This document shows, piece after piece, positions 58,427-64,000 of a stretch of DNA of 64,000 nucleotides. The notes below the pieces were generated by a model, which had not been told where the DNA came from, ran no database searches, and was given only the letters and a program-made list of their open reading frames with translations. A program made the translations under genes and the position numbers. Source of the stretch: Gilliamella sp. App4-10 (GTDB lineage: Bacteria > Pseudomonadota > Gammaproteobacteria > Enterobacterales > Orbaceae). Every line of letters starts with the position of its first letter. The first letter of the stretch is position 1. Where the stretch lies: positions 62,001 through 126,000 of the forward strand of contig NZ_LZGS01000001.1 in assembly GCF_001690495.1 (NCBI RefSeq), given 5' to 3'.

Positions 58427-58448
58427 TGGTGCGTGGGCGGGACTTGAA
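58427..58448 (-). other. Candidate attachment site (tRNA 3'-end-like)
   Basis: On the minus strand this reads TTCAAGTCCCGC then CCACGCACCA, resembling a tRNA-Leu T-loop, T-stem, acceptor and CCA end. It is one base short of a regular tRNA and no tRNA body precedes it. A partial tRNA 3' end is what a P4-type integrase leaves at the far end of an element; its orientation fits an intact minus-strand tRNA beyond the right edge. Could be coincidence. Confidence 0.4.
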
Positions 58449-58542: not shown

Positions 58543-58696
58543 AATATTAGGTATTTTAATCTTGCCAAATTGAAAGGTTAAAAATTGGTTTTAGAATTTT
58601 GACGGTGTAAAAATTTATCTAGGTGAGCGGTATCCGTTAATTATGTTTTAGATTTTTTATACCTCCCCCCCCATAAAAATAAAATTTTATAAAAAA

Positions 58697-58801
58697 GTGT
58701 TCACGGTGTTCACTACTTGCTTGAAGCCTTATTCTAAAAGGGTTTGAGCGGTGAACACTTAATGATTTACTATTCACAAGTGTACACTTTAGGTGTTCAC
58801 C
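58697..58801. other. Candidate replication origin with GTGTTCAC iterons
   Basis: GTGTTCAC occurs at 58697-58704, 58706-58713 and 58793-58800, and its inverse GTGAACAC at 58751-58758. A palindrome AGTGTACACT is at 58779-58788. The core GGTGAACA (58750-58757, and inverted at 58794-58801) is the kind of iteron that phage P4 alpha protein binds at ori and crr, as I recall. A very AT-rich stretch and a C8 run (58665-58672) lie to the left. The primase-helicase gene is close by. Confidence 0.6.
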
Positions 58802-58833
58802 ACAAGATAAATAATGGATTAATTTAGATCTAG

Positions 58834-59406
58834 CTATATATGTTTAGCTAAATATTCCACCATTTCTTTATTATTTAAAAAAGAATAAAATCTTTTTGCT
58901 AAGGCTTTTATTCTTGTATATCGTTTTGCTTCACTAAGTTGTTTTTCGGCACAATAACAATTAAGACCATCATACATATCAAAGTAATCATAATAGATAA
59001 AAAGCCAATAGTGCTTTATTCTATGAAAATATCTGTTTCCAAATTCTATATATTTGAATACAAAACTATGAAGAAGATCGCCAATATCTTCTAAACTATT
59101 ACATATCATAATTTTTTGGCTAAAAAGTCTCATGAAAACTAAACAGCTATAATTAATGCTTGGTATAGAAATATTTTTTTCGGAAAGATATCTTTTTAAG
59201 TACGTCATAACCTCATCGCTATCTATTTTTTTATCAAGTCCCAAAGAAGCAATAATCAATAGTATTTCTGAATCATCACCTTGCATAACTTGTTTTTCAG
59301 CCCAATCAATTATTAGGCCACTAGAATAAAAATATTCTGATGGTGAACCATAATATTGATTAAATCTATAAAGCGATAAAATTTCATCGAGAGATAAATT
59401 ACTCAA
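58834..59406 (-). CDS. Uncharacterised 190-residue protein, probable element cargo
   Basis: I do not recognise this protein. It has no signal peptide or clear membrane helix, is rich in Tyr, Phe, Ser and Leu, and looks mostly helical (SLDEILSLYRFNQYYGSPSE ... KRYTRIKALAKRFYSFLNNK). It lies between the iteron region and the primase gene, on the same strand as the primase but beyond that gene's terminator, so it probably has its own promoter. Base composition is even more AT-rich than its neighbours. The position suggests accessory cargo, such as an immunity, anti-phage or host-takeover factor, but nothing in the sequence proves a role. Confidence 0.7.
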   Translation of the reverse strand: MSNLSLDEILSLYRFNQYYGSPSEYFYSSGLIIDWAEKQVMQGDDSEILLIIASLGLDKKIDSDEVMTYLKRYLSEKNISIPSINYSCLVFMRLFSQKIMICNSLEDIGDLLHSFVFKYIEFGNRYFHRIKHYWLFIYYDYFDMYDGLNCYCAEKQLSEAKRYTRIKALAKRFYSFLNNKEMVEYLAKHI

Positions 59407-59472
59407 TTTTAAAACCTTTTATTTATAAGAAAATACCCATTTAATGTATCTTATCTTACATAAGCGAACAAC

Positions 59473-59497
59473 AAAAAACCGCCCAAATTAGGCGGTT
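59473..59497 (-). terminator. Terminator of the primase operon
   Basis: On the minus strand AACCGCC (59497-59491), loop, GGCGGTT (59483-59477), then TTTTTTG; it lies about 20 bases after the primase stop. Confidence 0.85.
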
Positions 59498-59513
59498 CAT
59501 AGGTTAACAAATA

Positions 59514-61889
59514 TTAACTACGAGCTAGTTCTTCGGCTTTGGGCAGCCAATCTTGACTAGTGTTAATATTAAGCTCTACGTTGGTTCTCATCCCTTTATT
59601 TGCTCTTTTACGCATGTAGTCTTTACCGTTTTCTTTCATTGCGTAATTAAGCGATGTGCCAAATTGCGTCAGTGATAACGGATTGTTTAAACCTGTATTG
59701 CGGATGTATTCAATATAAGCATGATATAAATATTTTCGGGGGTTAAAGGGCATTATTCCCATATTGCCAATAAACATACCATTGGGATAATCAAGCGCAT
59801 CAAGATAACTACAAAAATCTACCAAGTGGTCGGATTCGCGTTTAATCGCCGTCGCTTCATCTGATTGTTGTTGCTGGTGTAGTCTTTCTTTAGCTTCTGC
59901 TGGACTGGTAAACTCATTTAATAGCAACCTCACAATTGAGGGGAGCTCTTGCTCTATTTTGCTAACCAAGTTTAAATCTCGCTCTTTTTCAGGGATGACT
60001 TCGCCAAAGTGAAAGATAACCCTACGCCGTGATATACCGCCGTTACGCTCGTTAAATCTCATTGCCTCGTTATTGATAACCAAGACTACCGCAGGGATTT
60101 TACAAGAATAGGGTTGCTTGTGTTTTGGGTCTATTGCGACTTCATCACCGCCAGTAATTGCTTTTAATCCTGCGCCACTGCCCATATAACGCGGTTGGTC
60201 GGGTAAGATGACTAATGAGTAACCCACGATTAAGGCTCTGTCCCTTGCCTTTTCTAAGGCGTCCATAGTGCCTATTACAGTATTGTTTTTACCTGACAAC
60301 ATCGTCGCAATTTCAGCAAAAACACTTTTACCGCTACCACCTGCGCCTGTAACCTCTAAGAATAATTGCCAGTCATGACGATTAGCCAATATCATATATA
60401 GCGCAGCTAAGATATTTTTAGCCTTATCTTGATTGCCTGATGCTCTTTTTAGCCATTTAGCGAAGTTTGGCGCGTGAGTATCAAAAGATTCCTTTTCTTT
60501 GGCAGGGTAGTAATCAATATCATTACTGACTAATAGCCAATCTTGCTTATTGTGAGGTCTAAAGGTTTGGCTTTTTAGCTCATATACGCCATTTTTAAAG
60601 CAGATTAAATCTTTCTGAGGTGTTCCCATTATCGGTAGGGACAATCTGAGCGATTCAACCGCTGAGCTAATTCTTAATGGGTTAAATGGCTCGCCTGATT
60701 GAGTAAATAAATCGGCTAAGGTTCGCATTAGCATTTTATCGCTGATGGGTTGCCATGCGTTATCTTTATAGTAATAGATTTCATCGGTAGTAAGATTAAT
60801 TGCAAGGTTATTGTCATAATATTGATTGAGCAGTTCAGCCCGTTGACTTGATGCCATTTGCGATAGGTTCATACTTGATAACTCGTTTTGCATGTTATGT
60901 TTTGTCATGGTGGATAACTCTGGTTTTATGAGGTTTTTATTAAAATGAGCCGAAGCGTTATCGCTTCCAAATTGTTGCCTATAATCATCCCAATCACATT
61001 TATAATCTGTATCAGGAACGGAGTAATAACCATTTACCGCTTGAGCTGCCTCTATTGCTTTAGCTAAGCCCGTATTAGGGCTTTGACCAATATCGTTATC
61101 ACCTGCAATAATGATTTTAGCGGTAGGGTTTAACTCACGAATGTCTTTAGCTACATGAATAAGATTACCTGCGTCAATAGCGGATATAACAATAGACTGT
61201 TGGCGGAATTCCGCTATCGATATCCCTGTGGCTAAACCCTCACAGATAATAATTTCATTATGTGCGAGCAAATTTGCGCACACCTCGGCAGGTCTGCTCA
61301 AAACTGAGCGCACTAATATAAAAGCACTTTTCTTATTTGAGTCTTTCATTAAGTGCTTACTGCCATCAGGTTCGATAAATTGACCACCTGCGTATTCATT
61401 ATGAAGATTCAGCATAGGCACAAAAATGCGCCCGTTATCTAACAAGGGTAAATCAAAGGTTAACCCTTTCTTGGTCAGGTATTGAGATTGCCCTAATGTT
61501 GCTTTAGATAGCAAATACTCGACCTTTTTACATACGGGATTATCTGGTATGTTATCATTATGTAATTGTTCAGAATCTATTTTTCTAAATACGAGATTTT
61601 CCCGTATTTTGTTATTCTGATTAGACAGATTTAAACATTCCGCTACTTTATTTGATGCTTCTTTAGCGTCACATTGACAATAGTTTTTGATAAGCTCTAA
61701 GCCATCACCACTACCGCACTGGTTACAGATGTACGTACCTCTACCATTTTGATTATCAAATCTAAATCTATCCTTACCCCCACAGACAGGACAAGGGCAA
61801 TGTTTGCCATTACCCACTTCAATACCTAATGATTGAAAGACATAATCCCATTTACCTACGGCTTGGGCTGTAATTTCATTGATTTTCAT
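59514..61889 (-). CDS. P4 alpha-like primase-helicase of a satellite element
   Basis: Replication protein combining primase, helicase and probably origin binding. 791 residues (P4 alpha has 777). The N-terminal zinc ribbon has CPVCGGKDRFRF and CNQCGSGDG (about 31-58). The primase motif EGLATG at 217-222 matches P4's EGYATG in sequence and position. The SF3/D5-type helicase has VTGAGGSGKSVF (about 508-520), ITGGDEVAIDPKHKQPY and VVLVINNEAMRF. The C-terminal 150 residues would contain the origin-binding part. Iterons lie about 0.7 kb downstream. Last gene of the small operon. Confidence 0.92.
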   Translation of the reverse strand: MKINEITAQAVGKWDYVFQSLGIEVGNGKHCPCPVCGGKDRFRFDNQNGRGTYICNQCGSGDGLELIKNYCQCDAKEASNKVAECLNLSNQNNKIRENLVFRKIDSEQLHNDNIPDNPVCKKVEYLLSKATLGQSQYLTKKGLTFDLPLLDNGRIFVPMLNLHNEYAGGQFIEPDGSKHLMKDSNKKSAFILVRSVLSRPAEVCANLLAHNEIIICEGLATGISIAEFRQQSIVISAIDAGNLIHVAKDIRELNPTAKIIIAGDNDIGQSPNTGLAKAIEAAQAVNGYYSVPDTDYKCDWDDYRQQFGSDNASAHFNKNLIKPELSTMTKHNMQNELSSMNLSQMASSQRAELLNQYYDNNLAINLTTDEIYYYKDNAWQPISDKMLMRTLADLFTQSGEPFNPLRISSAVESLRLSLPIMGTPQKDLICFKNGVYELKSQTFRPHNKQDWLLVSNDIDYYPAKEKESFDTHAPNFAKWLKRASGNQDKAKNILAALYMILANRHDWQLFLEVTGAGGSGKSVFAEIATMLSGKNNTVIGTMDALEKARDRALIVGYSLVILPDQPRYMGSGAGLKAITGGDEVAIDPKHKQPYSCKIPAVVLVINNEAMRFNERNGGISRRRVIFHFGEVIPEKERDLNLVSKIEQELPSIVRLLLNEFTSPAEAKERLHQQQQSDEATAIKRESDHLVDFCSYLDALDYPNGMFIGNMGIMPFNPRKYLYHAYIEYIRNTGLNNPLSLTQFGTSLNYAMKENGKDYMRKRANKGMRTNVELNINTSQDWLPKAEELARS

Positions 61890-61899
61890 TACATCCCCC

Positions 61900-62274
61900 T
61901 TAATGAATTATCGCGCTAGATTCAGCTTTGATATCTTCGGCTAAATCAATAAATAACGTTGCAAGCATTTCTTGCCCGAATTGCGTTAGTGCCATAGGTT
62001 TATCATCACTTTCGGCGTACATCTTTTTTAATAGTCCATAGGTACGATTTAACCCCTCACTTTCGCCAAAGTCTTCAATCAAGCATTCTTCAAGACTAAC
62101 TTTTAACCCTAAAACAATTAAATCTTTATCAATATCAATCTTGATATCCTCATGAATAAACACCTTGGCGCCGTTTTTATTAATCTGCTCAATTAAAAAT
62201 AAACCTGCTATTATCGCCATGGTAGAATCAACGATACTATGGTGAATTACTGTCACTTCTTGCTGATTATTCAT
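61900..62274 (-). CDS. Uncharacterised satellite protein, 124 residues
   Basis: Not recognised. Begins MNNQQEVTVIHHSIVDSTMA, with a mildly hydrophobic stretch (IIAGLFLIEQI), and ends with an acidic helical part containing ALTQFGQEMLATLFIDLAED. It overlaps the upstream 62-residue gene by four bases (ATGA) and ends 10 bases before the primase gene, so it is a co-translated part of the operon. A role in replication control or in host-phage interaction is possible; nothing shows it. Confidence 0.75.
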   Translation of the reverse strand: MNNQQEVTVIHHSIVDSTMAIIAGLFLIEQINKNGAKVFIHEDIKIDIDKDLIVLGLKVSLEECLIEDFGESEGLNRTYGLLKKMYAESDDKPMALTQFGQEMLATLFIDLAEDIKAESSAIIH

Positions 62275-62459
62275 GATTTACCCCCCTTAATTTGTGTCAT
62301 GTATCGCCTAACTTCGGGCGGTAGTCGCTTGGTGACATCGGCGAGTAAGTTAGGGATTTCATCCTTGCCAAAAGAAAGTAGTGCTACATATTTGCCATTT
62401 TTAAGCCTTAATGCGGTAATAATGCCGTCATCGTTATGGGCAAAATCAAACTCTTTCAT
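62271..62459 (-). CDS. Small uncharacterised satellite protein, 62 residues
   Basis: Not recognised. MKEFDFAHNDDGIITALRLK is followed by GKYVALLSFGKDEIPNLLAD, so it looks like a compact beta-then-helix protein. It overlaps the genes on both sides (14 bases upstream, four downstream), which supports its being translated. AAAGAATG-type sequence at the start is a poor ribosome site; coupling is likely. Confidence 0.6.
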   Translation of the reverse strand: MKEFDFAHNDDGIITALRLKNGKYVALLSFGKDEIPNLLADVTKRLPPEVRRYMTQIKGGKS

Positions 62460-62667
62460 TCTTTGCCTCCTTGCACTCGGTTTCGCTTCTAAATAGCTTT
62501 TTAGAATCGTTAATTAAGTCTGATACAGCATCAAGGGCGTAGGCGCGTAACTCATCATTAATTGGTGTATTAGAATCACAATCCACCATTAAAAGCGTGG
62601 TGATAGCGTTGGCTTGTCCTAGTTTTGTATTGATAGTATTTATTGCGTCCAGTGAGATATTAGCCAT
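62446..62667 (-). CDS. Small uncharacterised satellite protein, 73 residues
   Basis: Not recognised. MANISLDAINTINTKLGQAN ... LRAYALDAVSDLINDSKKLF suggests two or three helices with a charged C-terminus. A GGAGGATAAGAAT-like ribosome site precedes the ATG. Overlaps the genes on both sides by 8 and 14 bases. Similar helical layout to the next upstream gene (MGNNNFQIINN...), so the two may be related. Confidence 0.65.
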   Translation of the reverse strand: MANISLDAINTINTKLGQANAITTLLMVDCDSNTPINDELRAYALDAVSDLINDSKKLFRSETECKEAKNERV

Positions 62668-62893
62668 TATTCTTATCCTCCGTTAACCCGTACTCTTGTA
62701 ACTCATCAAAAGCTTGCTCTACTAAATCAACGATAACCCACAGTAAATTACTCATATCGGCTTGTTCGATAAAAGGCTCATCATATCCTGCGCACTTATA
62801 ATTAGTGTTATCCAAAGCGATTTTAGCCATGCTCCGAACTTGAATAAGTTTTGCTTCGATGTTATTTATTATCTGAAAGTTATTATTGCCCAT
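62660..62893 (-). CDS. Small uncharacterised satellite protein, 77 residues
   Basis: Not recognised. I start it at ATG 62893 (MGNNNFQIINNIEAKLIQVR), because GGAGG lies at the right distance; a longer frame to 62953 runs through the preceding gene. Helical, with CAGYDEPFIEQADMSNLLWV and an acidic end. Overlaps neighbours by 11 and 8 bases. Confidence 0.65.
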   Translation of the reverse strand: MGNNNFQIINNIEAKLIQVRSMAKIALDNTNYKCAGYDEPFIEQADMSNLLWVIVDLVEQAFDELQEYGLTEDKNNG

Positions 62894-63101
62894 AGTGATA
62901 ACCTCCAAAGCTTCTAGTGTCTTCAATGACTGGATATAAGCGAATTCTGGCAATAAAGATAAGGGAGGATTTGCCTAGACTTTTTCTAGCTTGTTGTTCT
63001 GTAGGAGCTAATGCCTCAAATACTTTGGCAGTAGTAAGGTCATAGAATTTAAATAGTTTAGTTTCACGATTACTTTTTTCTTGATAATTCGTTTTCAACA
63101 T
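62883..63101 (-). CDS. Ash/Icd-like small satellite protein, 72 residues
   Basis: Starts at ATG 63101 after a strong GGGAGGT. After a short polar N-terminus, FYDLTTAKVFEALAPTEQQA then RKSLGKSSLIFIARIRL resembles the conserved end of phage Ash / host division-inhibitor Icd-like proteins (x-A-x-T-E-x-x-A-R ... F-x-x-R-I). Those are short proteins encoded near the immunity region of P4 and P1-type phages. The resemblance is moderate; the function in P4 is itself unclear. Confidence 0.5.
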   Translation of the reverse strand: MLKTNYQEKSNRETKLFKFYDLTTAKVFEALAPTEQQARKSLGKSSLIFIARIRLYPVIEDTRSFGGYHYGQ

Positions 63102-63102
63102 A

Positions 63103-63444
63103 CTATTTACCTCCCTTACGGTTTTGTGTAGCATCAAGTAGGTTAATTTGATTTGAAGCGAAACAAGCGACATCCCTTAATTGTGCTAGTAAATAGCCAA
63201 TATCGCGCATATCACTTTTAAGGTTCTGCTCGGAATAACTTTCATTTTCACTAGCCCAAAACATCAGGTTACCAATCGCACCTATTCCATATAGAATAGA
63301 TTGCTGTAGTTCTTCAAAATGATTTTCAGCTTGTAGTAAATGGTGTGTTGGAATATCTGCTTGATAGAGATTTAAAACAGAAATTAAATTAGATAGGTCA
63401 GGTTGCCCATTTTTAGGGCGTAGGGTATCATTACTATTAGCCAT
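63103..63444 (-). CDS. Uncharacterised satellite protein, 113 residues (first gene of operon)
   Basis: Not recognised. From ATG 63444, preceded by TGGAG. Helical protein with PDLSNLISVLNLYQADIPTH, HFEELQQSILYGIGAIGNLM and LKSDMRDIGYLLAQLRDVA. It is the promoter-proximal gene, opposite the ribbon-helix-helix gene, where P4-like elements often carry regulators. One base separates its stop from the next gene's start. Confidence 0.7.
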   Translation of the reverse strand: MANSNDTLRPKNGQPDLSNLISVLNLYQADIPTHHLLQAENHFEELQQSILYGIGAIGNLMFWASENESYSEQNLKSDMRDIGYLLAQLRDVACFASNQINLLDATQNRKGGK

Positions 63445-63521
63445 AGCATTACTCCATTTAATGTTTGTGGTTAGATAGCTCATTGAGGTGTGAACTCTTT
63501 GGGCTATTGTTTTTTGGGGCG

Positions 63522-63539
63522 CGACCATTATAATGGTCG
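63522..63539. promoter_or_regulatory. Palindromic operator over divergent promoters
   Basis: Perfect 18-bp palindrome CGACCATTATAATGGTCG. Its centre contains TATAAT on both strands, so one protein bound here could block both the leftward operon and the rightward ribbon-helix-helix gene. A direct repeat GTAATTA (63547, 63566) lies between it and the rightward start. Confidence 0.65.
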
Positions 63540-63574
63540 TTACCGTGTAATTATAATAATATCGGGTAATTACC

Positions 63575-63748
63575 ATGTCAACACCAAAAGAAAAAAGATC
63601 ACCACAATACCAAATGCGATTAACCGAAGAATTTCGGCAACAGTTAGAAGAAGAAGCTATGAAAGATGGCGATACTAGCTTGGCTACTTGGATTAAAAGA
63701 GTTTTAAGAAAAGAATTACAATCACGAGGAATTATACCTAAAGCATAA
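63575..63748 (+). CDS. Arc-like ribbon-helix-helix DNA-binding protein, 57 residues
   Basis: ATG 63575 to TAA 63746-63748. SPQYQMRLTEEFRQQLEEEA gives the N-terminal beta strand (QYQMRL) and first helix of the Arc/MetJ fold. A second helix follows in SLATWIKRVLRKEL. It is divergent from the satellite operon, across a perfect palindrome, and is likely the element's repressor or activator. No strong ribosome site is visible. Confidence 0.75.
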   Translation: MSTPKEKRSPQYQMRLTEEFRQQLEEEAMKDGDTSLATWIKRVLRKELQSRGIIPKA

Positions 63749-64000
63749 TAATTAAGTTTCTTGTGGTTTCTTTTTATGGACTCAATAAACCTACTTTTAA
63801 AATTCAACCCCATGCAATGATTAGTACGCATTAAAAAAACGGTTTTCACTGCGTACTTAGTGCGTACTTTTACACTGGTTTCCACTGAAATAGGCTTTTT
63901 TGACTGAAAACTAGAATTATTGCCAACCAAGAAGAATGATTTCACCTTTTGGATGGCGTTAATTCCGTTAAAATAGCAATTTAAGCGATTATTTGGGGCT
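63749..64000. other. Right-edge region with GCGTACT repeats
   Basis: GCGTACT occurs at 63851-63857 and 63862-63868 (11-base period), with an inverted AGTACGC near 63823-63829. No open frame is visible in the remaining bases. The layout suggests integrase-arm or regulator sites just before an integrase gene beyond the window. Confidence 0.45.

Follow-up and report, generated by a model that had tools for sequence, protein, structure and literature searches.

Accessory cargo occupies a slot between psu and int in phage P4 and a slot between A and Q in phage P2 (Rousset et al. 2022, PMC9122126). In PICIs, an immune-gene region lies downstream of pri, and the same study described Tai, for tail assembly inhibition, which blocks the assembly of phage tails (He et al. 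2024, PMC11364771). Tab, the tail assembly blocker of Pseudomonas phage JBD26, is a protein of 83 residues encoded between the terminase genes (PMC10884400). Here, we analyzed a window of 64,000 nucleotides (bases 62001 to 126000 of the 127,616-base contig NZ_LZGS01000001.1) from the 2.43-Mb genome of Gilliamella sp. App4-10 (GCF_001690495.1) and compared a small cargo gene within it with these systems.

A mobile single-gene cassette 3' of a satellite primase

The carrier element combines a satellite-type primase-helicase with an att site at a tRNA gene and is P4/PICI-like. Beyond the end of mukB (58003), the order is att core, GTGAACAC-type repeats, cargo ORF, primase terminator and primase. 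Its features in window coordinates are as follows.

58432 to 58448, minus strand: att core of 17 bp that exactly matches a stretch of the tRNA-Leu(GAG) 3' end
58694 to 58801: clustered GTGAACAC/GTGTTCAC-type repeats that bound the slot on its left and are a candidate replication origin
58801 to 59468: cassette of ∼668 bp, comprising the gene and 62 bp upstream, which sister satellites lack at this junction
58834 to 59406, minus strand: cargo gene, 190 aa, TTG start, for a predicted all-helical soluble protein of a family without a name
59476 to 59498, minus strand: intrinsic primase terminator that bounds the slot on its right, with a hairpin common to the empty sites
59514 to 61889, minus strand: primase-helicase gene (phrog_2249, E 1e-124) with Zn ribbon, Toprim and D5 domains
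61900 to 63945, minus strand: small early satellite ORFs upstream of the primase, conserved in sister satellites

The first-pass annotation had placed the gene between the origin and the attachment site. Since the gene lies between the primase and the repeats, with the iteron cluster separating it from the att core, this placement was inaccurate. Two other statements held, namely that the gene is located beyond the primase terminator and that it is more AT-rich than its surroundings (GC content: gene, 26.5%; cassette, 25.9%; primase, 39.3%; window, 34.7%). We take the repeats to be a possible origin from their likeness to P4 iterons; they differ in sequence from those of five sister loci (L088, L089, L094, L095, and L036) and might track primase specificity.

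The cassette is absent from six sister satellites, leaving 2 bp between the aligned blocks in four of them (L088, L089, L094, and L095) and short joins in the other two (L091 and L092), and the primase slot of genome G025 (L036) lacks it too. In genome G008, the slot (L090:8011-9345) holds a 444-aa Fic-like protein instead (PADLOC SoFic, E 1e-46). The cassette core (58819 to 59440) is kept at 78 to 79% at a different site in G032 and G025, where its neighbors include a PDC-S34 HAD protein and a DUF2726-containing SF1 helicase; the G025 copy is a broken pseudogene. In G013 (L004 and L045, one genome), the cargo gene sits inside an element with the att core at both ends, and no primase match was found in this genome. 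Together with the occurrence of the family in prophages, another satellite and plasmids, the slot comparison bore out the earlier suggestion that the gene is swappable cargo: it is not invariant among related elements, and no housekeeping or structural family was matched. We conclude that an accessory slot 3' of the primase of a P4/PICI-like satellite carries the cargo gene as a mobile single-gene cassette, and that the primase-side slot known from PICIs is in use in bee-gut Gilliamella too.

Of the 35 genomes examined from the genus, 27 contain the primase. The integrase end of the element falls off the contig, which ends at 127616 with an IS-like ORF; integrase-like ORFs were seen by eye in two sister elements (L202 and L203). 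The capsid-size genes psu, delta and sid were not noticed by eye among the sister elements inspected. In L097, L098, L099, L100, and L102, related primases (59 to 69% identical) are followed by what look by eye like capsid, portal and terminase-like ORFs, suggesting that Gilliamella has capsid-forming PICI-like satellites. The integrase-side region is also variable (L204:4200-6661 and L005:894-1889), and L005 contains a 331-aa ORF with an AbiD/F-type look by eye.

The cargo protein is under purifying selection and predicted to be all-helical

The cargo ORF comprises 190 codons, with AAAAGG 8 nt upstream of its start. Intact relatives exist, and dN/dS between them was 0.16 to 0.35 in several pairs, indicating purifying selection; the ORF is therefore not a chance one. 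No positive selection was seen in the family by pairwise dN/dS. Sites returned by a promoter scan did not exceed those in shuffled sequence, and none was located immediately upstream of the gene.

In agreement with the earlier description of a protein outside known families, no significant match was obtained in Pfam, NCBIfam, PHROGs or PADLOC, and the PADLOC-DB 2.0.0 profiles gave no match up to E 10. Weak matches to TPR_ESP1 (Pfam, E 0.05) and phrog_33444 (E 0.09) were rejected as noise. A sequence profile search of the PDB returned nothing. Two independent AlphaFold2 models (pLDDT 87.5 and 87.1) both consist of about ten helices, and no transmembrane segment was evident. Fold searches, with both models against the PDB and also against BFVD, yielded no match above noise (best PDB scores: Foldseek E of ∼1.2; VIA-align Z of 6.7 and 6.1, within the noise range for helical proteins), so that the fold can be called neither new nor known. 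In the wide family alignment, W35, A36, E37, A53, and S54 are invariant, and G43, S46, L50, I51, L55, L57, Y69, and P82 nearly so. Invariant polar residues are few, and none falls within a recognized catalytic motif. Most family members are acidic (pI 4.5 to 5.7); the pI of the window protein is 6.1.

Relatives occur in satellites, prophages, plasmids and chromosomes

Relatives were present in 5 of 35 Gilliamella genomes, one of them as a pseudogene. Profile searches detected the family in 25 of 392 Enterobacteriaceae species (∼6%; 18 genera) and in 12 of 394 Enterobacterales genomes. A narrower profile found only the genome of origin among 369 Gammaproteobacteria, and the wide profile found 3 of 269 genomes in a phylum sample. 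At the cut-offs used, a search of 50,697 phage records detected no copy, and a DNA search with two relatives found none in E. coli, so that no reservoir was found there.

The genomic settings of these copies are varied. In G151, a relative with 30% identity comes right after the 3' end of a P4-like primase (39% identity with the window primase), convergent rather than co-directional with it; this orientation, opposite to that in the window satellite, suggests a separate capture. Other relatives adjoin P2-like integrases, commonly with an int 3' fragment alongside. In lambda-like prophages, the relative is located between gpI (phrog_32) and gpJ (phrog_31), co-directional with the late tail genes (eight contigs inspected), and has a GC content of 38 to 40% compared to ∼45 to 54% in the flanks. 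The same I-J place is held by phi80 morF; kinship with it was rejected, as morF is a lipoprotein by its record and no likeness is visible. Plasmid copies were found in Leclercia, Serratia, Pantoea, and Rahnella, and solitary copies in chromosomes, including a fixed place in five species of one genus (g400). These copies would define a family, unnamed in the libraries searched, whose single gene is passed among satellites, temperate phages and plasmids.

Two further observations concern the P2-like setting. An ORF of 145 to 146 aa without a Pfam match repeatedly comes right after the relative in P2-like prophages (L040:8695-9132, L052:2677-3114, and L169) and may be a second unnamed cargo gene. 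The int 3' fragments beside the cargo (L053, L139, L176, L179, and L197) suggest that the P2-like int-side hot spot grew stepwise by repeated insertion.

Candidate functions of the cargo protein

On the most likely reading, the product of the satellite cassette, predicted to be soluble and all-helical, would shield its host from a competitor. It would do so by attaching to a protein of that competitor and inhibiting it, and this target would more probably belong to an incoming phage than be a bacterial toxin. We assign a probability of roughly 0.48 to this reading of the gene as a protective cassette encoding a protein-binding inhibitor with a phage target rather than a toxin target. Protection, binding rather than catalysis, and a phage as target are all points that we infer. 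A protective gene is favored because the primase-side slot corresponds to the published immune region of PICIs and because a sister slot contains the Fic-like defense homologue; direct binding is favored because recognized catalytic motifs are lacking and the fold is helical. No consistent partner gene was seen across the cargo-family loci, suggesting that the protein probably acts alone. A tail or virion-assembly target of the kind known for Tai and Tab is only a guess.

Known defense genes lie within a few kilobases of several relatives: PARIS AriAB in two cases (L048 and L136), PD-T7-1 (L050), AbiEi/AbiEii (L047), retron RT-Toprim I-C (L040), ThsB (L037), PDC-S34 (L035), and an AriA/OLD-like ATPase (L197), in a raw, uncontrolled tally. 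Such neighbors say little about function, because hot spots gather cargo of many kinds. Also counting against the anti-phage reading are the fixed chromosomal copies in g400, the negative searches of phage records and E. coli given above, and the copies in toxin-immunity arrays or near Hcp-Tlde1-like modules described below. A role in defense or immunity fits both the slot and the neighbors, and sequence alone cannot separate anti-phage from anti-toxin action.

We ranked anti-phage action ahead of the idea that the protein is an orphan immunity protein, which would bind and neutralize a toxin that competing bacteria deliver by contact (of the CdiA, Rhs or PAAR type) without its own toxin being carried. 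This second explanation is possible but less probable. Two copies lie in toxin-immunity arrays (L018 and L139). The copy on Serratia pAM01 is embedded in a CdiA-CT array that also contains DUF637, DUF596, a deaminase toxin and Imm31; however, the toxin there already has a different ORF directly behind it, and recombinase-like fragments (by eye) flank the relative. The copy in G868 follows a PAAR-type ORF (by eye), DUF6392 and Imm15, but is split from Imm15 by an integrase 3' fragment (by eye). The island in Gilliamella G032 contains DUF7079, Hcp-Tlde1-like modules were seen by eye near three copies (L044, L140, and L197), and bee-gut bacteria are known for T6SS antagonism (PMC5727410, PMC8125069). 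The proteins are also small, helical and mostly acidic and have no recognized catalytic motif, as would suit an immunity protein; the window protein, with its higher pI, suits it less. Against toxin immunity, no inspected locus has a relative directly after a toxin gene, including those within the arrays, and 17 members and 5 distant ones gave no match above cut-off to an Imm family in Pfam.

An accessory or regulatory role for the satellite or prophage itself, for example in helper-phage interference or in tuning late expression, would account for the position of the gene between primase terminator and origin-like repeats and for its co-directional insertion among late tail genes in lambda-like prophages. 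Nevertheless, sister satellites do without the gene and many copies reside on plasmids or alone in chromosomes, making this role unlikely. Less likely again, and our least favored explanation, is a selfish or neutral passenger that brings the host no benefit and spreads via integrase-linked cassettes. Short tyrosine recombinase ORFs (by eye) accompany several copies (L020, L134, L138, and L139), and two copies, one in Gilliamella and one in G398, are broken, as a passenger would allow; yet the dN/dS values given above indicate selection on the protein. Within the preferred reading, that of a protective inhibitor, a bolder claim is that the family constitutes a widespread, previously undescribed anti-phage system of enterobacteria that consists of one protein, is present in three kinds of phage-related element, has an all-helical fold unmatched in PDB searches and acts by direct binding; on this view, the copies directly before tail gene J would hint at virion assembly as the process targeted. 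We regard this claim as doubtful. If the gene is protective, it would offer a simple test case for single-gene defense and for how far anti-phage and anti-toxin cargo overlap.

Comparison with known systems

The cargo protein resembles orphan Imm proteins in that family members are small, acidic and helical, lack a partner toxin, have spread horizontally and include two copies in arrays. Unlike those proteins, it has no Imm match and no cognate toxin was found, and its relatives occupy mostly phage-related places. Membership in Tai was rejected: hhalign of the family against TaiEcA (phi80 Orf63) gave a probability of 0.1% (E 0.46), and the cargo family lacks the RNDLAH motif of TaiEcA (HEPN-like, by eye). 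Like Tai, which is found as a phage moron as well as in P4-like satellites and, in PICIs, in the slot adjacent to pri, the cargo gene is single, small and phage-linked, and it lies directly 3' of a satellite primase, a shared position that is no proof of kinship. Tab, a prophage moron giving phage defense, is likewise a single small protein; it differs in its size (83 versus 190 residues) and in the location of its gene. The slot 3' of the primase differs from the P4 and P2 hot spots, and the P2-like copies are beside int. Like the cargo of those hot spots, however, the gene is swappable and short, occurs in both satellites and P2-like phages, and is found beside systems such as PARIS.
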